This document shows, in pieces, positions 11,271-28,598 of a DNA stretch of 47,792 nucleotides. Position numbers and translations under genes: made by a program. The notes under the pieces were generated by a model. That model worked only from the letters and a program-made list of their open reading frames with translations. It was not told the DNA's origin and ran no database searches. Source of the stretch: a virus; IMG/VR virus record IMGVR_UViG_3300007346_000047, positions 1 through 47,792 of that record. One strand, given 5' to 3'. Within the stretch, counting starts at the first letter, position 1. Each line of letters starts with the position of its first letter.

Positions 11271-11471
11271 CTAACAACTAATGTAGCTCTTGCCTTTTAT
11301 GGCAGCACCTGCACCACGGACAGTCATAACCTTACGCGTATCGCCCAACATAGGAGCCTCTGCGGTCTTTCCGTAAGGAATGCGGCCTTGACCTTTAATG
11401 TCGGCATACGGTACCGCTTTAGGAGGGTCTTTAGGGGCCGACCCGTTTACTCGAACTGTGCGTTTTTTCAT
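11271..11471 (-). CDS. Small basic conserved protein (66 aa)
   Basis: Starts on an ATGA overlap with the portal stop. MKKRTVRVNGSAPKDPPKAV and a C-terminal TVRGAGAAIKGKSYISC are seen. The VRGxGAAxKGxxF/Y ending is widespread in small proteins near the portal gene of marine phages. Function unknown; possibly a virion peptide. Confidence 0.6.
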   Translation of the reverse strand: MKKRTVRVNGSAPKDPPKAVPYADIKGQGRIPYGKTAEAPMLGDTRKVMTVRGAGAAIKGKSYISC

Positions 11472-13933
11472 TGTGGCATACCTCCGCCATCGGGTTGTTG
11501 TTTCAAAATTTCTCGTTCCATTGCCGCATCAATGCGGGCCTGCGTTTGACGCTCTTGCGCTGCAATCCGCTCTTGGAACTGTTGTGCCCGCATTTCGGCG
11601 GTCTGCTGATCTAATTGTAACTTTCCTTGGTCAATTTGCGCATCCACCTGATCGGACTGCGCCCGAAGTTCCAGCTCTTTCTCCTTAAGCTGAACCACAG
11701 GGTCCGGAGCACCAGCCCCGGAAAGCTGACCAGAAAGTTCTTTTACTTGCTGCAAACCTTCTGCAATAAATTGAGCCGTTTGCTGCTCTATCTGTAGCAT
11801 CTCGTCTTCGTTTGCAACCCGACCACCGCGCTGTTGAACTTGCTGCATGTACTGAGACACAGACCTCTCGCTCGCTGCAATCCGCACATGCTCCATAATA
11901 TGTTTCTGTAGGCTCATAGCTATCGGGGGTGCTTGACCAACCAAGGCACTGCTCGCAAAAATTAAATGCGAGGTGATGTGAGCTTGGTGGTTCTGACCCT
12001 CAAAAGCTTTCAATGGCAACATATCTAAAGCGTTGATGTTTTCTTGAGCCGGGTCCAACGGTTCGGGAACTTCCGCCGGAATAGCTTTCATTAAACGATC
12101 TACGTCCGATACGCCTAAAGCCTCATACATGTCACGGTATACTTCGTGCATGTTGTGAATTTCCGGGGCCTGTGACGCCAATTGCATCTTTGTCTGAGCT
12201 AAGACAATTCTTTGAGCCTGACTAAACACATTTGGGTTGCTTACCGGAATGACGTCTACACGATCATCAAAGTCTTGAGCCATAACCGATTGGTCGTCGC
12301 CCGCCACGGCGTAAGGATATTCTTGCGGTAGACTTTCCGACATTACACGAGCCAAAATCTTAAACTCTTGGCGCATAGCATAGTGAAGGCGCTTGTGAAC
12401 GGCGCTCATGACCCTAGAGCCCTGCTCTAGCATCGCCATGGTAGTACCTACCGCAGCTTGATCGTTGCCGTCCCCAACCTTTAAATCGGTTATCGTAGCA
12501 AACCGCTGACCAGCTTGAACCACAAAACCTAAAAGATTGAATAACGTCTGATCCGGACCCTTAAACGGGAGCGGCATCAAACTATCCCGGATCGCGCCCC
12601 CCGGAGCATCCACGTCCCGGAACTCTCCGGGCTGAAGCGGGTCGTCATCGTCCCGGATGCGCAAACCACGCGCTTTAAAGCCCGCAGGGAGGTTGGAAAG
12701 GGTTCCAGCATCAATTAACTGACGAAGCGCCGACGTTGCCGTTCTTGACAAACCACCAATCGTGTGAATTAGGCCCAGTCCGTAAAAGCCGAAGCCCGGA
12801 AGGAACTTATAATGCGTGAAATACTGTATTTTACGCTTTAAAGTGTCATCTTCTTGGTAGTTCCGTCGAACAGACAGCACCTCGCCGTTATCCTGAGACA
12901 ACGTTACGATGTACGGAACTTTAATTCCAGTGGGTTCGCCGTCTTCGTCAAGGTCTTCGTAACCTTCCAAGTCTAAATCGACATGACACTCCAAAAGTGT
13001 GCAGTCGTAATCTACTTGATTAGGCTCAAAACCCTCAATTCTATCAATTTCTTGACCCACGCCTGAAGTGTTTTGCTGTGCAGGACTTACTTCAACGTCA
13101 CGATAGAAACCCGCAACTTGGTTTTTACGCAAATCGTTCAAAGACATTCGAACAACCTGCGTAATGTTAGGACATGTATCCAAATCAGACGTCTCGTAAG
13201 GAACGACAAGGTCCTCAGACGGGACAAATTTGGAAACCGCGCGACCTAACGTTTCGTCATAATACGTCTTTTTAAATGTTGAACCCGCCAAAGGCAGGTA
13301 GAACAACATTTGATCCATATCAGGCGTATATTCTTCCATCACACTCGTGATGTAATAGTTCATGAAAGTCTTTACGCGCCTAGCTTGCGCAACTTTCTCA
13401 CGAGTTTCGTTACCCATGACCACAGTTCGGACAGGGCCCGAAGAAGGCAACAATTCGTTAAACGCTTGAGCTTGAAATTGCGTCGCAGCTTCCGCCAAAA
13501 GCGGATGAGTGACGCCCGAAGCACCTCTAAACGGTTGCGTACGCTCGTTGTAAGTGAAACCCAGAAGGTCCAAACCATCCGCATAAGCTTCCTCCCATTC
13601 CTGCCTGCTCGCCTTATTAGAATCAAAATCCCCAGAAAGCTCGCTGGAAATACGACCTAGTTCACGCTCCGGGATTTCTTCTGCCAAGTTGGCGTAGAAA
13701 TCATCGGATTCGCCCCGCTCGTCCGACGGATCAAAGTCCACCTCGACGCTGCCGTCTTCTAAAGCCACAACCTCAACGGGGCCTTCGTCTTCGTCCTCTA
13801 ATTCATACGAAGCGTTTTCCAAAGTCCCCGGAAGCTCCAATTCGATTTCGGCCGCTAGGACGTCTGGGTCCAACTCAGAAGGAACACTGGTTTCCATTAA
13901 GCTGCTTTGAAAGCCGTTACGCTCTTCAGCCAT
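11468..13933 (-). CDS. Portal protein, P22-like (821 aa)
   Basis: The portal forms the dodecameric vertex through which DNA is packaged and ejected. The N-terminal 100 residues are very acidic. A core with AEAATQFQAQAFNELLPSSG, YLPLAGSTFKKTYYDETLGR and IHTIGGLSRTATSALRQLI is typical of podovirus portals. The last 120 residues are a Gln/Glu-rich helix (MRAQQFQERIAAQERQTQAR) like the P22 barrel. Start overlaps the stop of the 1251-aa gene (TAATG). Length is large but usual for this marine group. Confidence 0.85.
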   Translation of the reverse strand: MAEERNGFQSSLMETSVPSELDPDVLAAEIELELPGTLENASYELEDEDEGPVEVVALEDGSVEVDFDPSDERGESDDFYANLAEEIPERELGRISSELSGDFDSNKASRQEWEEAYADGLDLLGFTYNERTQPFRGASGVTHPLLAEAATQFQAQAFNELLPSSGPVRTVVMGNETREKVAQARRVKTFMNYYITSVMEEYTPDMDQMLFYLPLAGSTFKKTYYDETLGRAVSKFVPSEDLVVPYETSDLDTCPNITQVVRMSLNDLRKNQVAGFYRDVEVSPAQQNTSGVGQEIDRIEGFEPNQVDYDCTLLECHVDLDLEGYEDLDEDGEPTGIKVPYIVTLSQDNGEVLSVRRNYQEDDTLKRKIQYFTHYKFLPGFGFYGLGLIHTIGGLSRTATSALRQLIDAGTLSNLPAGFKARGLRIRDDDDPLQPGEFRDVDAPGGAIRDSLMPLPFKGPDQTLFNLLGFVVQAGQRFATITDLKVGDGNDQAAVGTTMAMLEQGSRVMSAVHKRLHYAMRQEFKILARVMSESLPQEYPYAVAGDDQSVMAQDFDDRVDVIPVSNPNVFSQAQRIVLAQTKMQLASQAPEIHNMHEVYRDMYEALGVSDVDRLMKAIPAEVPEPLDPAQENINALDMLPLKAFEGQNHQAHITSHLIFASSALVGQAPPIAMSLQKHIMEHVRIAASERSVSQYMQQVQQRGGRVANEDEMLQIEQQTAQFIAEGLQQVKELSGQLSGAGAPDPVVQLKEKELELRAQSDQVDAQIDQGKLQLDQQTAEMRAQQFQERIAAQERQTQARIDAAMEREILKQQPDGGGMPQ

Positions 13934-19165: not shown

Positions 19166-19250
19166 GGGGGCCCCCAAAGTTATTTATATGCGATTAGTAC
19201 CTTATAATAGTACACCATATCATTTTTTATGGGAATATTTGTGAGAAACA
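19166..19250 (-). promoter_or_regulatory. AT-rich terL leader with TAATCGCATA motif
   Basis: The 85 bp before terL are AT-rich in an otherwise very GC-rich stretch. On the minus strand they contain TATTATAAGGTAC and then TAATCGCATATAA, sharing the TAATCGC core found at other promoter-like sites (22948, 23952, 28214). No good -35 box is seen at 17 bp. A palindromic GGGGGCCCCC lies in the ribosome-site region. Confidence 0.35.
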
Positions 19251-19353
19251 TGGCCCTAGCACCCGCCGGTCGGCCCCGGGGGCCGCGCGCCGGGGGCGGG
19301 CGGATCGGGCCGGGTGGTGATGGCGGAATGACCCGATATCCAGGGGCCCCGGG

Positions 19354-19720
19354 GCGACATCGGGCCGGGGGATGTCGGGCCGGGGATGTCGGGCCGGGGG
19401 ATGTCGGGCCGGGGCGACATCGGGCCGCCGGACATCGGGCCGGTGACATCGGGCCGCCGGACATCGGGCCGGTGACATCGGGCCGCCGGACATCGGGCCG
19501 GTGACATCGGGCCGCCGGATGTCGGGCCGGTGACATCGGGCCGCCGGATGTCGGGCCAGGCGACATCTGGCCGGGAGATGTCGGGCCGCCGGATGTCGGG
19601 CCGCCGGATGTCGGGCCGGGCGACATCTGGCCGGGAGATGTCGGGCCGCCGGATGTCGGGCCGGGGCGACATCTGCAGGGCAGATCGGGCCGCCGGATGT
19701 CGGGCCGGGGAACATCGGCA
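19354..19720. repeat. GC-rich array of ~25 units of about 15 bp upstream of terL
   Basis: Units of the form GACATC or GATGTC followed by GGGCCG recur 25 times, spaced mostly 15 bp, with alternating 14/15 bp (29-bp period) in the middle. The hexamer flips between its two reverse-complementary forms while GGGCC keeps its orientation. All frames are open on both strands only because of composition, and the 14-bp steps break any reading frame, so I treat it as non-coding. Confidence 0.85.
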
Positions 19721-19728
19721 GGGCAGAC

Positions 19729-19897
19729 GTCGACGCGCTGCCGACGTCAAAATGATGCGGGACGTGGTCAAAAAGGTGCTCTCTGGTCTATCTGGTGGTC
19801 GATTGCCGGGCAATCCTACGCTGAGATTGACCAGAGAGCACAAAAAAACCCCGCCGGGGATCGCCCGGCGGGGTTTTGACGTCGGCAGCGCGTCGAC
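19729..19897. repeat. Nested perfect inverted repeats (24 bp outer, 13 bp inner)
   Basis: Outer arms 19729-19752 and 19874-19897 are perfect reverse complements (24 bp) around 121 bp. Inside, 19776-19788 and 19829-19841 form a perfect 13-bp inverted repeat, and 19801-19815 forms a 7-bp hairpin. The right outer arm begins at the terminator T-tract and ends on the stop codon of the 88-aa gene. Confidence 0.9.
19842..19878 (-). terminator. Strong Rho-independent terminator after the 88-aa gene
   Basis: A perfect 14-bp stem (19845-19858 with 19864-19877) and a 5-base loop are followed on the minus strand by a run of seven T. The plus strand ends with four T, so weak bidirectional action is possible. 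It separates the accessory genes from terL. Confidence 0.9.
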
Positions 19898-20163
19898 TAG
19901 TCGTCGGCAGGTTCCCATTCCACCGGATCCGATGCCTCTCGCACCTCGCGACGGTTCCGGATATCGGTTAGGTCCTCATTCAGCGCGGACTCTAACTGAT
20001 CGAGCGCGCGGTTGAGCTGCCGGTTGATCTCGTCAACCTTCCACTTCTTAACTTTATCACCGGTCAGATTAATGCGGCCGTGAAGGATGTCGAGCAGGTC
20101 CGAAACATCCCGCGCGGCAAGGATGAAGTGCGCGCCGTCCTCTAAGGTGTACTGGTATTTCAT
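19897..20163 (-). CDS. Hypothetical acidic helical protein (88 aa)
   Basis: MKYQYTLEDGAHFILAARDV starts a protein with two helical segments (VDEINRQLNRALDQLESALN, EDLTDIRNRREVREA) and an acidic end. No family recognised. It is the last gene before a strong terminator, and its stop codon lies at the edge of a 24-bp inverted repeat. The high GC content matches the genes upstream rather than the late operon. Confidence 0.6.
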   Translation of the reverse strand: MKYQYTLEDGAHFILAARDVSDLLDILHGRINLTGDKVKKWKVDEINRQLNRALDQLESALNEDLTDIRNRREVREASDPVEWEPADD

Positions 20164-20239: not shown

Positions 20240-20950
20240 TCAATCGGCCCCGATATCGCCCGCCACATGGTGGCGCAAGATAGCGCCGGGCGGTAACTGG
20301 CGCGCAAACTTGCGCACGGCCTGGGCGTCGCTTTCATCCTGCCCGGCCTGGGCTGTCGCGTTCCAATGGATGCGACAGTTGCCAGCATCGGCATAGCACC
20401 CGCCGGGATCATCCGCGCCAGCGGCAGCGGCGCGCTTGCCTGGACCGTGCGCCGTGAACCCTATAACAAAATCACGGCCCAGGCGCGCGCATAGCGGATC
20501 GCCATTGCCGCAATCGGAACAACTGAAACCCTTGGCAAGTTCCGCCGGGCAGCGCACGACCGGAACGCCCGCCGGTGTCGCGGCATTGCGACCGCTATCG
20601 CCCCAAGCCTCCGGGCTCATAACCGCGACAGCCGGAACGCCCGCCGCGTGCGCAGCATCGGCAGCGGCTAACGTATCCGCGCTGTAATTAATAACAGTGC
20701 GACCGTCGCGCAATTCGCCCGCCCATTCGGAAAATGGAAAATGAGAATAGGTGAACGCGACGCCGCGACGCGGTACGGCATCCAGAAGCGCGGCCAGATA
20801 ATCAGCGTCGACGGTCCCCGCGCCTTTGCCGGTAGGGTTTAAGGCGCACGTTGCCGGGCAGGTTCCGAAACGGTTCCCGGCACCGGCGCGGTATGTTACG
20901 GCGCATCCGGCGGTCTTTGTTGATCGACTAACGGCTACAGTTTTGAGCAT
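20240..20950 (-). CDS. GP88/DUF7227-like Cys-rich phage protein (236 aa)
   Basis: MLKTVAVSRSTKTAGCAVTY, FGTCPATCALNPTG, AFTYSHFPFSEWAG, VVRCPAELAKGFSCSDCGNG, VIGFTAHGPGKRA, GGCYADAGNCRIHWN and ILRHHVAGDIG are all signature blocks of a Cys-rich phage family related to gene product 88 of mycobacteriophages. Function is unknown; the conserved Cys and His residues suggest metal binding. The CYADAGN and RHHVAGD blocks stand at the C-terminus, whereas in relatives I recall they come before the FTYSH block. Very GC-rich. Driven by its own promoter at 20994-21022. Confidence 0.65.
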   Translation of the reverse strand: MLKTVAVSRSTKTAGCAVTYRAGAGNRFGTCPATCALNPTGKGAGTVDADYLAALLDAVPRRGVAFTYSHFPFSEWAGELRDGRTVINYSADTLAAADAAHAAGVPAVAVMSPEAWGDSGRNAATPAGVPVVRCPAELAKGFSCSDCGNGDPLCARLGRDFVIGFTAHGPGKRAAAAGADDPGGCYADAGNCRIHWNATAQAGQDESDAQAVRKFARQLPPGAILRHHVAGDIGAD

Positions 20951-20993
20951 GTTTAAACTCCCCTGGCGCGGCTGAATTGCGGCGCTATCTAAT

Positions 20994-21246: not shown

Positions 21247-22437
21247 TTATGCGGCGACCTTATCCAGCAGCGCGCCCGCTTTGCGTTCTACCTGAATGCG
21301 GTCGTCTTGGTGCGGAACGTCACGCGCAATGGCGGTTATAGCCTGCGCAGCATCCCAAACGGTCTCAACCGGACGCCCTTCTTCCTCTATGTGCCGGGCG
21401 TTAGCGGCTCGCGCCATACGGGCAGACAATCCCGCACGCTTCGTTAGAAACGACAAACGGCTATCGTCGTCGTGCGCAATTTTGGCCGCCTTGGCTGCCT
21501 GGACGCCCTCAATGAATGTGGCTGTTTCGCCATGCGCAAAGCTGCGCAGCGCTGGCGCAGCCTCATGCGCGAACCGGTCCGGCGCGAACTTGGTGTGCCG
21601 AATTTTAATCTCTGAGAAGTTTTCGACGCCCCAAAGGCAACGGTTCATGCAAACGCCGCGAAGATACATGGCCGCAATACCTGCCGTTTTGCTTCCGGTC
21701 TCGCTGTTCCAGGCATAGAACCCCCGGAACATCAGGTCCGGTTCACCGTTCGGAAGCGTGCCGACCTCAATCGGGTTGCGATCATCTACCAAAAAGGCAA
21801 ACACGTCGCGGTCGCTGGCGAACAACGTCGTGGTCTCCAACGTAACCGGCACGTCCGGGTCATACACGGCCATGCCGTCGCGGCTGCCGGTCATCATGCC
21901 GGGCACCTTCCAGCGCCCGCCGCTATCGTCAACCAACTGCTTGATTGGTTCTAATATTTCCCAATCGAAGATGCGGCCATAATCCGGTCCGGTTGCAGCT
22001 CGCAGCTCGCCGCCTTCTGTTTGGCTGCCGTACACCTTAACCAGTTCGCGGTTCCGGTTATAACGCAGACCCCATTGGATGCAGTCGGCGGCCAACGGTG
22101 CGGGCAGGTCCCGCAAATATCCCGCAGGAGCGCCGGACAACGAGGCAAGCTGCCCGAACGACCAATTCGTCGGGGCGTTCTGATGCTCGCCATTAGCGTC
22201 ATCACGGTATTCAATAGTGATTTCGCCCGCCGTAGGGCTGCCTTCGTTAACGTCGCCCAGGACGTTCATCTTGTGAGTGTCCACGATGCGGCTAGTCATG
22301 CGGCCCGCATCGACTTTCTTAAACGCCAGCATATCGTCCAGCGACAGGAACTTCTGATCGTCCGGGCGGCTGAACCACTGGCTCGATACCTGCGTGTTGC
22401 CAATGCCATGCTGGAATGCGTTCGTAACGTAAGTCAT
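21247..22437 (-). CDS. DUF932 family protein (396 aa)
   Basis: The length and blocks such as TNWSFGQLASLSGAPAGYL, RDLPAPLAADCIQWGLRYNR, GRIFDWEILEPIKQLVDDSG, LFASDRDVFAFLVDDRNPIE and GFYAWNSETGSKTAGIAAMY match the DUF932 (phage/plasmid-like) family. These proteins are common on phages and plasmids, and no activity is established to my knowledge. It is followed by a terminator and preceded by an intergenic hairpin/operator, so it looks like a single-gene unit within the GC-rich accessory block. Confidence 0.8.
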   Translation of the reverse strand: MTYVTNAFQHGIGNTQVSSQWFSRPDDQKFLSLDDMLAFKKVDAGRMTSRIVDTHKMNVLGDVNEGSPTAGEITIEYRDDANGEHQNAPTNWSFGQLASLSGAPAGYLRDLPAPLAADCIQWGLRYNRNRELVKVYGSQTEGGELRAATGPDYGRIFDWEILEPIKQLVDDSGGRWKVPGMMTGSRDGMAVYDPDVPVTLETTTLFASDRDVFAFLVDDRNPIEVGTLPNGEPDLMFRGFYAWNSETGSKTAGIAAMYLRGVCMNRCLWGVENFSEIKIRHTKFAPDRFAHEAAPALRSFAHGETATFIEGVQAAKAAKIAHDDDSRLSFLTKRAGLSARMARAANARHIEEEGRPVETVWDAAQAITAIARDVPHQDDRIQVERKAGALLDKVAA

Positions 22438-22468
22438 GATATTCTCCCTATGTCAGCCGTTCAAAGCA

Positions 22469-24334: not shown

Positions 24335-25069
24335 TCAGAGCTGCGCCTGCAACAAATCTGCTCCAGTACCCGTAACGGCCTCCCGCTTCAATACTTCGGG
24401 GTGGCTATCAACACTATCCAGCATCCACAAATAAGCGGCGGCATGGTCGTTGTCGCCGTGCGTTTCCTCTATGGCAGCGCGGAACTCGGCGACGGTCTTG
24501 TCTTGGAAACAGCCGGTCCAAAAACGTAATCCGACGCCACACTTATGAACGATGGTGGTGTGCCGTCCCTCAGAACCAATGGGGCCGATGGACATAAACC
24601 AGTCGCCCTTTTCGATATTCGCGCGCGGGCCGATATTCGCGCCGGGGCCGATATCCGCGCCGAGGCCGATATCCGCGCCGAGGCCGATATTTGCGTTTTC
24701 GCCGATATACGCGCCGGGGCCGATCTTCGCGTCTTCGCCGATATACGCGTAAGGGCCGATATCCGCGTCGGAGCCGATCTTCGCGCCGGGGCCGATATTC
24801 GCGCGCGGGCCGATCTTCGCGCCGGGGCCGATCTTCGCCTCGGAGCCGATATTTGCGCGCGGGCCGACCTTCGCGTCAGAGCCGATCTTCGCGCGGGGGC
24901 TGATATACGCGTCGGGGCCAATCTCTATTGATGCGCTTAGTGTTAATCCCTCCGCAATCCGTGCCGTCACCGCGACAATAGCGCCTTCGGAACCATCCGG
25001 GTTGATATGCCTGCGGGCCTCGGCTTCAAGCCAACCGAAGAACTTGTGTGTGAAGATTTCGTTGCTCAT
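24335..25069 (-). CDS. Left-handed beta-helix (hexapeptide repeat) protein (244 aa)
   Basis: Residues 50-155 contain about 17 consecutive hexapeptides of the type I-G-x-x-A-x (IGPGAK, IGPRAN, IGSDAD and so on), the hallmark of LpxA-type left-handed beta-helices. The N-terminus (FFGWLEAEARRHINPDGSEG) and the C-terminal domain (FMSIGPIGSEGRHTTIVHKC, AEFRAAIEETHGDNDHAAAY) match domains known from other phage proteins of this kind. No acetyltransferase catalytic loop is obvious, so an adhesive, scaffold or DNA-mimic role is possible. Preceded by a coupled 20-aa leader. Confidence 0.75.
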   Translation of the reverse strand: MSNEIFTHKFFGWLEAEARRHINPDGSEGAIVAVTARIAEGLTLSASIEIGPDAYISPRAKIGSDAKVGPRANIGSEAKIGPGAKIGPRANIGPGAKIGSDADIGPYAYIGEDAKIGPGAYIGENANIGLGADIGLGADIGPGANIGPRANIEKGDWFMSIGPIGSEGRHTTIVHKCGVGLRFWTGCFQDKTVAEFRAAIEETHGDNDHAAAYLWMLDSVDSHPEVLKREAVTGTGADLLQAQL

Positions 25070-27305: not shown

Positions 27306-27496
27306 TACACCGGCTCCTCCGCCAAAGTGATTTCCAAGTCTTCGCCTTTGTCGGCTCTGGCCCAGGGGGCCTCAAAGCACACGATTTCGTGCCTTCCCCT
27401 GCGGGTTTTAATTTTAATTTTCCTCCAATAAACCTTGTCCCTTTCTTGAATTGGACCGACCGTGATGTCGGTGACATCGTGCACACTGATATCCAT
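27305..27496 (-). CDS. Small beta-rich hypothetical protein (63 aa)
   Basis: The frame extends upstream to 27610, but that part lies in another gene; the ATG at 27496 (MDISVHDVTDITVGPIQERD) overlaps the regulator's stop (TAATG). The product has alternating strands (VYWRKIKIKTRRGRHEIVCF) and an acidic end. No family recognised. Its place in a chain of overlapping genes supports expression. Confidence 0.55.
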   Translation of the reverse strand: MDISVHDVTDITVGPIQERDKVYWRKIKIKTRRGRHEIVCFEAPWARADKGEDLEITLAEEPV

Positions 27497-27945
27497 TAGT
27501 TCGCTCCCAGCCAGCGTATCAGGGTCGGGAAGGCCAGTCCCAGGATCGCACCTAGCGCTCCTGCGCCCACGAGCGCTGTTGGCAACCCAATGGCTAGCTC
27601 CCTTTTCCAATTGTATGGCTCGGGGGCCGCGGTCTTTGGCACGGGCACCACCGTTTCGTTACGCGGTTTGCGGTTTTGAGGGCGTGGCGCGCTCCGACCA
27701 GTGCGCCCTGGGTTTGTTTGGCGCTCCATCCAAGCGTTTATTTCCTCCGCATCCCAACGGAGCTGCAAACGTTTAGCGCCGCCCTGGGCCACGGCCCAGA
27801 CTTTTTGAGGGCGGGGAAAACCTGCCCCACGAGATTTGCGATAAATTGTGCTTTCGCCAAAACCCGTCTGGTCAGCGACCTGAGTGATCGAAAGCATTTC
27901 CGCGTCATCCCGCGGCACTGGGTTGTGATAGCTGTTCGAAACCAT
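27496..27945 (-). CDS. AlpA-like HTH regulator with C-terminal membrane segment (149 aa)
   Basis: Residues 17-78 (MLSITQVADQTGFGESTIYR, FPRPQKVW, RWDAEEINAWMERQ) fit the AlpA/excisionase-type winged HTH. A Pro/Arg-rich linker follows, then one hydrophobic span near the end (LPTALVGAGALGAILGLAFP). A membrane-anchored regulator is unusual for AlpA proteins, which are normally 60-70 aa and soluble. First gene of the overlapping early operon, preceded by a promoter overlapping a palindrome that it might itself bind (inferred). Confidence 0.7.
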   Translation of the reverse strand: MVSNSYHNPVPRDDAEMLSITQVADQTGFGESTIYRKSRGAGFPRPQKVWAVAQGGAKRLQLRWDAEEINAWMERQTNPGRTGRSAPRPQNRKPRNETVVPVPKTAAPEPYNWKRELAIGLPTALVGAGALGAILGLAFPTLIRWLGAN

Positions 27946-27977: not shown

Positions 27978-28006
27978 ACTATGCGGGTTATCGCATAGGT
28001 CGTCAA
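27978..28006 (-). promoter_or_regulatory. Sigma70-like promoter with perfect palindromic operator
   Basis: Minus strand: -35 TTGACG (28001-28006), 17-bp spacer, -10 CATAGT (27978-27983), 33 bp before the AlpA-like start. The perfect inverted repeat CTATGCG-GGTTAT-CGCATAG (27979-27998) fills the spacer and overlaps the -10, as expected for a repressor site. Confidence 0.7.
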
Positions 28007-28014
28007 CTGTTTTT

Positions 28015-28185
28015 TTATCCGACCAATATTCGGGTCCAGGCGTCGCGCATTTTTTGGATGTCTGCGTCGCGCTCTTCTTGAGTGCCCATCCCCCCAAGTT
28101 GTAAGAGAGCGATTTGGCTCTCGACCGCCTCTTCCACAACGAATTTAGCGTCGGACCAGGAGATTTTTTTTGTAATCGAAGTCAT
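28015..28185 (-). CDS. Small hypothetical protein (56 aa)
   Basis: MTSITKKISWSDAKFVVEEA and QLGGMGTQEERDADIQKMRD form a mostly helical protein. A ribosome site (GGGAAAG) and the strongest promoter in the window precede it. No family recognised. As the first gene after that promoter it may be a very early host-takeover or regulatory protein; that is inference. Confidence 0.55.
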   Translation of the reverse strand: MTSITKKISWSDAKFVVEEAVESQIALLQLGGMGTQEERDADIQKMRDAWTRILVG

Positions 28186-28213
28186 TTCGCTTTCCCTTTT
28201 TTGTGAGATAGCG

Positions 28214-28242
28214 ATTATATACGATTATATAAGAGTTATCAA
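28214..28242 (-). promoter_or_regulatory. Strong sigma70-like promoter
   Basis: Minus strand: -35 TTGATA (28237-28242), 17-bp spacer, perfect -10 TATAAT (28214-28219), 29 bp before the 56-aa gene. A similar CGTTGATAA element about 21 bp upstream duplicates the -35 region. TATAATCGC is shared with other sites here. Confidence 0.75.
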
Positions 28243-28281
28243 CGACTATATACGAATTATCAACGAGAACCATAACAATGT

Positions 28282-28323
28282 AAAAAAGCAGACGCCCCCG
28301 GACAGGGAGGAACCGGGGGCGTC
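28282..28323 (-). terminator. Rho-independent terminator
   Basis: A perfect 11-bp GC-rich stem (28291-28301 with 28313-28323), 11-base loop, then a T-run (28282-28287) on the minus strand. It ends transcripts from the right before the early promoter at 28214. Confidence 0.9.
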
Positions 28324-28371
28324 GCGGTCATCAACGGGAGAGGCACTGCACCGTCTGACCTTACGAGCAGT
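28282..28371 (-). ncRNA. Candidate ~90-nt small RNA
   Basis: The promoter at 28378-28406 would start transcription near 28371, and the terminator at 28282-28323 would end it, with no credible gene between (a short ATG frame lacks a ribosome site and runs through the terminator). This gives a transcript of about 90 nt whose 3' half is the terminator hairpin. It could be a regulatory RNA, an attenuated leader of the 56-aa gene, or just a buffer promoter. Expression is not shown. Confidence 0.4.
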
Positions 28372-28377
28372 AGGGTG

Positions 28378-28406
28378 AAAATAAAGCGCGTTTATGCGTA
28401 TGTCAA
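28378..28406 (-). promoter_or_regulatory. Sigma70-like promoter with consensus -35
   Basis: Minus strand: -35 TTGACA (28401-28406), 17-bp spacer, -10 TATTTT (28378-28383). Half-sites TATGCG (28393-28398) and CGCATA (28415-28420) of the shared operator flank the -35. Confidence 0.6.
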
Positions 28407-28427
28407 TGGTCTATCGCATACCTGCCA

Positions 28428-28598
28428 CTAATGTTTTATCTTCACGTCCATTTTTTGACTAGGTGTAACGTTTTTATACACCTCAAACATATATCGGAGT
28501 TGACCACTGATGGTGCGTCCCTCTTCGCGAGAGATTTTTTTCAATTCGTCATACACGTCACGGGGTGTCAAAACACTTTTCCAACGCTCGGTATCCAT
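28428..28598 (-). CDS. Ribbon-helix-helix-like regulator (56 aa)
   Basis: MDTERWKSVLTPRDVYDELK, then KISREEGRTISGQLRYMFEV, fits the CopG/Arc-type ribbon-helix-helix: a short strand, helix, turn with GRTIS, and second helix. A GGAGA ribosome site precedes the ATG. Such proteins dimerise and bind palindromic operators, so it is a candidate for the CTATGCG-N6-CGCATAG sites nearby, as is the AlpA-like protein. Follows the polymerase gene by 80 bp. Confidence 0.6.
   Translation of the reverse strand: MDTERWKSVLTPRDVYDELKKISREEGRTISGQLRYMFEVYKNVTPSQKMDVKIKH

Follow-up and report, generated by a model that had tools for sequence, protein, structure and literature searches.

The most familiar antisense RNAs of phages come from temperate phages that infect laboratory bacteria, and they often have one target. 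The sar and OOP RNAs are encoded opposite or beside theirs. Both the sar RNA of P22 and the OOP RNA of lambda are antisense RNAs that lower a phage gene, with one target each (ant and cII, respectively) in the account given by PMC12197685. The c4 antisense RNA of phages P1 and P7, a structured RNA described with one target, ant, base-pairs in the region of a ribosome-binding site on a phage mRNA, and its complementary stretches are likely to sit in loops (PMC12197685). The same account presents VpdS of phage VP882 and PreS of lambda as trans-acting, Hfq-binding phage sRNAs that act on host mRNAs and, in the case of VpdS, also on phage mRNAs (PMC12197685).

Here we examine a locus in a viral sequence, IMG/VR record IMGVR_UViG_3300007346_000047, whose whole stretch of 47,792 nt is referred to as the window. 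The original prediction, made from the letters of the sequence, had proposed a phage small RNA at this locus, and that reading is supported by a conserved promoter, operator, and terminator, by covariation within a wider RNA family, and by antisense complementarity to ribosome-binding sites in that family. The operator, the RNA family, and its targets are additions beyond what had been predicted. We conclude that the locus probably encodes an operator-controlled, trans-acting antisense sRNA of about 90 nt with which the phage represses its own genes.

Promoter, Predicted Transcript, and Terminator in the Window

A consensus promoter with a 17-bp spacer, followed by a terminator and with no credible gene in between, had been predicted for the locus without a strand, and all of these parts were located on the minus strand. 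The -35 hexamer TTGACA (28401..28406, minus strand, by consensus scan) and the -10 hexamer TATTTT (28378..28383, minus strand) are separated by 17 nt in a promoter spanning 28406-28378, from whose position transcription would be expected to start at about 28371. The predicted small RNA (28280..28371, minus strand; about 92 nt, with the start inferred) ends, as had been anticipated, about 90 nt past the expected start in a terminator hairpin (28291..28323, minus strand). The 11-bp stem of this GC hairpin, GACGCCCCCGG/CCGGGGGCGTC (28323-28313/28301-28291), forms 11 of 11 pairs; its 11-nt loop reads UUCCUCCCUGU (as DNA, TTCCTCCCTGT; 28312-28302), and the stem is followed directly by the U-tract TGCTTTTTTAC (28280..28290, minus strand). 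The loop is our proposed pairing seed, and folding gave it a mean unpaired probability of 0.93. The 93-nt RNA as a whole folded at -40.6 kcal/mol (z = -3.80), with none of 200 shuffles equally stable. An ORF scan found no minus-strand ORF of at least 30 aa inside the RNA, and at the level of sequence the non-coding stretch lies between its own promoter and an intrinsic terminator. A 98-aa, GTG-started frame on the plus strand (28082-28378) overlaps the RNA and was judged not credible.

Folding of the first 36 nt placed a hairpin at the predicted 5' end (ACUGCUCGU-AAGGUCAG-ACGGUGCAGU; 28345..28371, minus strand). Between the two hairpins lies a linker, here GCCUCUCCCGUUGAUGACC (28326..28344, minus strand), in the position that UCCGUAGUU holds in most relatives; the UCCGUAG motif is absent from the linker of the window RNA. 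A loop GGUC may also form a pseudoknot with GACC. By consensus scan alone the region is unexceptional: 19 kb contained 15 promoter-like sites against 11.5 expected (sd 3.4) and 35 terminator-like sites against 26.2 expected (sd 5.1), and it is conservation that lifts the promoter-terminator pair above chance.

Conservation Among the Closest Relatives

Conservation of the hairpin and promoter in relatives, the check named with the original prediction, was borne out in an alignment (A1) of eight sequences, the window and seven relatives (L002, L004-L009), which keeps the promoter and operator, and the terminator nearly so. Invariant in A1 are TATGCGA, TTGAC of the -35, CGCATA, and, in the -10 hexamer, the A at position 2 and the T at position 6 (columns 59 and 63). 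The terminator is nearly invariant; the transcript that precedes it diverges, and in L006-L009 the divergence is almost complete. The terminator loop is identical in seven of the eight sequences (the window, L002, and L004-L008), with a different, C-rich loop in L009, and the terminator stem differs in L008 by one compensated pair, C-G to U-A, the only stem difference among those seven. A leader peptide was also considered and rejected, the single short frame through the terminator not being conserved in A1 by eye.

The 5' hairpin was folded in a set that partly differs from A1 (the window, L002, L090, L004, L086, L006, L008, and L009). When the first 36 nt were folded alone, the hairpin formed in all eight sequences, built from about four unrelated stem sequences; in the minimum-energy fold of the whole RNA it was missing from the window (by 3.5 kcal/mol), L002, and L008. 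In comparison with shuffled sequences, the hairpin is weak in the window (494 of 2000 were as stable) and also in L004 and L006, and strong in L008 (10 of 2000) and L009 (39 of 2000). Structural support at the level of the clade consists of the one compensated pair in L008 and these 5' hairpins of unrelated sequence.

These results bear on the reading that the hairpin is the ordinary terminator of a DNA-polymerase/RHH operon, with an incidental promoter upstream and no functional RNA. Its position just after the RHH gene, the near-chance consensus counts in the region, and the unremarkable 5' hairpin of the window all agree with such an arrangement, but it leaves aside the conserved operator and -10 positions directly upstream, the conserved terminator loop, and, as described below, the covariation of the 5' hairpin across 39 relatives and the antisense matches. 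We regard an ordinary terminator as very unlikely.

Operator and Neighboring Genes

The -35 hexamer is overlapped by an inverted repeat, TATGCG-N16-CGCATA (28393..28420, minus strand), which we treat as an operator. The repeat occurs with exact spacing in 40 of 80 DNA-polymerase-related viral loci (L002-L081), a set with several near-identical members, many contigs that break off early, and others that carry a CCCATA variant. An exact inverted repeat (N4-18) is present in six of nine long records, and the other three (G002, G006, and G008) carry the form TATGCG...CCCATA instead. Scanning genome contigs with the operator pattern gave 31 matches in unrelated taxa, fewer than a uniform-base estimate expects by chance, and they were treated as chance. 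The genome-contig matches (L250-L280) were left out of later analyses, and the comparisons of two-site leaders described below left out L245-L249 too.

A sequence scan found a second operator, TATGCG-N6-CGCATA (27980..27997, minus strand), before an AlpA-like HTH gene (27496-27945; Phage_AlpA E 4.4e-5, above the cut-off). The half-site TATGCGATA/TATCGCATA has four copies in the window, all on the minus strand, at 28420, 27997, 21068, and 21014, which stand upstream of the RNA, the AlpA-like gene, and DUF7227 (twice). Partner half-sites accompany the copies at 28420 and 27997 at spacings of 16 and 6 nt, a difference of one helical turn. In most relatives, TATGCGATA or a near form is present in the region upstream of DUF7227 too. 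The four half-sites likely mark the regulon of a phage transcription factor, and because TATGCGATA fronts both the RNA and DUF7227, the RNA and a gene among its targets (DUF7227) probably answer to one and the same phage DNA-binding protein. We infer that the protein binding the operator is probably the AlpA-like protein. Upstream of the RNA lies a 56-aa ribbon-helix-helix-like gene (28428..28598, minus strand) with a weak match to RHH_5 (E 6.4e-4; 19.8 bits, below the Pfam cut-off of 26), and, taken with the AlpA-like gene, it makes the earlier description of the locus as adjacent to early regulators a fair one.

A Wider Family of RNAs

Most of the operator-bearing loci share one type of RNA, consisting of a 5' hairpin, the linker UCCGUAGUU, and a terminator-like hairpin in which a covarying stem closes the loop CGGUUGCCCCC. 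Among the viral contigs searched, this type is represented by 51 distinct sequences. Altered linkers are found in L036, L042, L043, L048, L059, and L062. In L103, the same RNA type lies at about 2700-2830 behind a different promoter and has a U8 tract; a promoter-like site of its own lies further downstream, ahead of another gene.

A covariance model, R1, was built from 32 relatives' sequences, none from the window's clade, and recovered 39 of 40 sources at E 1e-4 or better (32 of 32 training sequences and 7 of 8 others, with L009 missed). Across these 39 relatives, the window not among them, 92.2% of cells pair in an alignment of a kind that leans towards the structure of the model. In that alignment, the two stems together hold 96 double-changed cells, against a mean of 24.2 (sd 4.9) in shuffles (0 of 500) and 4-12 in slid controls, and the covariation score was 0.459, against 0.165 for shuffles and 0.03-0.11 for slid versions. 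Counted by pairs that show a double change, the alignment (10) did not exceed shuffles (8.6; 74 of 500).

When long records were searched, the model gave one strong match (E 7.1e-15 or better) in each of the nine that bear the element, no comparable match in seven outgroup records (G017, one of these, gave two weak matches, E 0.01 and 0.46), and nothing at E<=1 in the window. The best and only full-length match in the window (28280-28363, minus strand) scored 14.1 bits (E 1.1), and L009 is intermediate at 21.5 bits (E 0.017). With this weak model score, the window's apparent membership in the family rests on position, operator, architecture, and the intermediate L009.

Rfam 15 gave no match at gathering thresholds in the window or in 11 relatives. 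There was no model match in the named phages with the closest DNA polymerases (DSL-LC04, 023Pt_psg01, HTVC023P, and HTVC027P), which come from lake or sea water, or in phages with DUF932 relatives (Mae-JY30, S-ESS1, and ZS04). Among the literature matches listed, judged by title and the start of the abstract, nothing describes this RNA and none combines HMO-2011, phage, and small RNA.

Genes Downstream of the Terminator

In the window, the next gene is a 56-aa ORF (28015..28185, minus strand) that by eye resembles the small protein following the RNA in L014, L036, and L206. It has separate promoter-like sites at 28284-28256 and 28242-28214 (28214..28284, minus strand; 10 and 11 of 12 matches), both downstream of the RNA terminator, and the second of these is recognizable by eye in L002 and L004-L008 of A1. 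A tandem 21-bp near-repeat at 28215-28256 gives the ORF its two stacked promoter-like sites; L004-L008 have one copy of this unit. In many relatives (L020, L016, L062, L048, L015, L009, and L052 among them) the hairpin is followed directly by a conserved protein of 68-73 aa (FV[DN]GL), of which one 54-aa fragment had no Pfam or PHROGs match; in the window, tblastn gave no match to it better than E 2.9.

The main rival to an antisense sRNA is an attenuator or antitermination leader, in which a short leader would end at the terminator until a phage factor permits read-through into the next gene, as exemplified by the lambda late promoter with its 6S RNA and Q. In most relatives, by eye, a ribosome site and gene lie within tens of bases of the terminator-like hairpin with no promoter between, and because the gene follows at once, the RNA could be a leader in these phages, which is a counterweight to the sRNA reading. 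The overlap of the operator with the -35 also suits a leader. The lambda-like arrangement, with a terminator directly before the controlled gene and no other promoter, is present by eye in most relatives but is not found in the window, where a separate promoter-like site follows the terminator, as it does (by eye) in L002, L004-L008, and L103. Moreover, an attenuator needs neither a conserved linker and loop nor antisense matches to distant ribosome sites, and inspection by eye showed no conserved alternative pairing able to break up the terminator. We consider a leader unlikely as the explanation, although leader and antisense roles could both hold in most relatives.

Candidate Targets in the Relatives

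The linker and loop of the relatives' RNA are antisense to the ribosome-binding sites of DUF932 and DUF7227 (both Pfam domains of unknown function), primase, and other genes. In five relatives, the complement of the linker, CTACGGAG, occurs at ribosome sites more often than any other of the 256 NNNNGGAG words, with 21 of its 24 sites located there against 8 for the next word; four own-antisense sites had been removed from this count automatically and one, at G002 41666, was missed, without which the 21 becomes 20. The pattern CTACGGAG-N3-14-ATG, once matches on the antisense strand of the RNA itself and sites counted twice had been taken out by hand, occurs at 34 sites in 388 kb of eight RNA-bearing records, at 4 sites in 237 kb of seven outgroup records, and at none in the window, the outgroup being a weak control of more distant records with no DUF932 match and a DUF7227 match in one only. 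Both the 34-site and the 21-site counts are not independent because they include orthologous genes in several phages.

Perfect complements of at least 8 nt to the linker or loop of the phage's own RNA were found in 28 of 338 start regions of the five relatives, against a mean of 4.0 (maximum 14) for 200 shuffled seeds that keep CTCC/CCCC; counted among the 28 are one region on the antisense strand of the RNA itself and several TTAACTAC/ACTTAACT matches in G013 that look like chance. For complements of at least 9 nt, the count was 16 start regions against a shuffle mean of 1.0 (maximum 7). Weighing against the sRNA reading is that a CUCC resembling an anti-SD sequence will pair to some extent with any good ribosome site.

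An energy scan of the same five relatives listed 9 linker complements beyond the RNA itself, of which 7 are ribosome-binding sites, among them those of DUF932 and of several small genes of unassigned function. Loop complements lie mostly away from ribosome sites but include those of DUF7227 and primase, and in many relatives GGGGGCAAC or GGGGGCA precedes the primase start. The loop word GGGGGCAA falls at a ribosome site in 1 of its 17 sites, under a rule that excludes starts closer than 3 nt and misses GGGGGCAACCATG and GGGGGCAACAATG. G013 has no target by energy scan and three CTACGGAG sites by word and perfect-match counts.

For DUF932, 16 distinct trimmed sites of relatives (from 19 of the common type, the others repeating a trimmed stretch) match one representative common linker, not each phage's own, over 7-12 nt (mean 9.75); the same 16 match the window's RNA over 4-5 nt. 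In phages without a model match, TACGGAG is absent from five ribosome sites of DUF932 or DUF7227 homologs, and ZS04 has CACGGAG. The scan of viral contigs for linker plus loop also matched the opposite strand of phage leaders in L180, L184, L189, L193, L241, and L290. These two-site leaders consist of a hairpin loop GGGGGCAACC, then ACTACGGAGG or CCTACGGAGG, then the start codon, and with the antiparallel order right, a single small RNA could pair with the two of them simultaneously.

That the same CTACGGAG ribosome site is common to many genes would also be compatible with the shared sequences being bound by a host factor or by an RNA-binding regulator of translation, with the small RNA as a decoy or a coincidental complement. 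However, the RNA carries the complement of the site and not a copy, both seeds are antiparallel in order to the two-site leaders, and the window, which is without the linker, is also without the ribosome-site word. We find such a protein-binding explanation highly improbable.

Candidate Targets in the Window

On moderate evidence from complementarity, the best candidate target of the loop UUCCUCCCUGU in the window is the DUF932 gene (21247-22437). The proposed target is its ribosome-binding site, ending in GACATAGGGAGAATATC (22438..22467, minus strand), which reads ATAGGGAG and would pair with CUCCCUGU of the loop over 8 bp including one G-U (6 Watson-Crick pairs in a row, 8 with the G-U). Among 47 hand-picked minus-strand start regions, this site ranks second by energy. 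In the close relatives L087 and L089, the DUF932 site is ACAGGGAG, a perfect match to the loop over 8 of 8 nt, and in L089 it ranks first of 48 candidate starts, which can include several per gene, by match to a window-type loop. At the L087/L089 site, the loop gives -14.7 kcal/mol vs -11.1 kcal/mol for the common linker; at the window's site, a common-type linker gives -13.7 kcal/mol, about equal to -13.3 and -12.8. A perfect-match score of 7 was reached by two other start regions of the window, those of 11468-13933 and thyX.

The ribosome-binding site CCAGGGGAGTTTAAAC (20951..20975, minus strand) before the DUF7227 gene (20240-20950) is a weak candidate, with at most 6 bp to the loop, and its homologs in the wider family are clearer targets. 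By eye, the primase ribosome site of the window has no match to the RNA. The window has no CTACGGAG start site, and energy rankings in the window with the linker, the hairpin-loop, and the whole 5' part gave no clear target.

Elsewhere in the window, 24335-25069 encodes a hexapeptide-repeat protein, with a repeat that keeps long frames open on both strands, and low-complexity repeats at 19180-19900 and 2535-2880 are open in several frames on both strands.

Proposed Mechanism

We propose that the element has its own sigma-70-type promoter, which would be switched by a phage DNA-binding protein recognizing TATGCG(A) half-sites. The short transcript would fold into a 5' hairpin and a terminator hairpin joined by a single-stranded linker. 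Its linker and/or terminator loop would base-pair with the ribosome-binding sites of genes of the phage itself, blocking ribosome entry and lowering translation at a set time in infection. Two seeds, the linker UCCGUAGUU and the loop CGGUUGCCCCC, would serve most relatives; the window's clade lacks the linker seed, which would leave the loop UUCCUCCCUGU as the remaining one.

A broader scheme, which we offer tentatively and hold as possible rather than probable, is a phage-wide regulon in which a two-seed sRNA shuts down the phage's own genes through a shared ribosome-site word and answers to the same transcription factor as some of its targets. The window's clade would then have been rewired, with the linker seed and the CTACGGAG sites lost and the loop taking over DUF932. 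If true, this would provide a simple post-transcriptional means by which a phage could turn down a set of its genes in concert. The locus appears to belong to a conserved, uncatalogued RNA family of uncultured phages, whose apparent RNA-target co-evolution predicts seeds, targets, and compensatory tests.

Comparison with Known Systems

The 6C RNA and the alphaproteobacterial ar14 RNA are small RNAs with C-rich or anti-Shine-Dalgarno loops. Both are bacterial, chromosomal families, unlike the phage element described here, and the window scores below both thresholds (26.1 bits for 6C, RF01066, gathering 47; 18.3 bits for ar14, RF02344, gathering 58.8). Like sar and OOP, the RNA is proposed to be a phage antisense RNA that lowers phage gene expression; unlike them, its complementarity is short and is to genes elsewhere. 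VpdS and PreS resemble it as trans-acting phage sRNAs, a likeness drawn by description only.

The C4 family of Rfam gave no gathering-score match in the window and is absent among the matches for 28240-28440 at E up to 10. The likeness to c4 as described is that of a structured phage RNA pairing at the ribosome-binding site of a phage mRNA (PMC12197685). In contrast to c4, the element comes with a promoter of its own under operator control, and its apparent targets are several and lie in other parts of the genome. While not a member of the C4 Rfam family, the RNA most likely works by a mechanism like that of c4.
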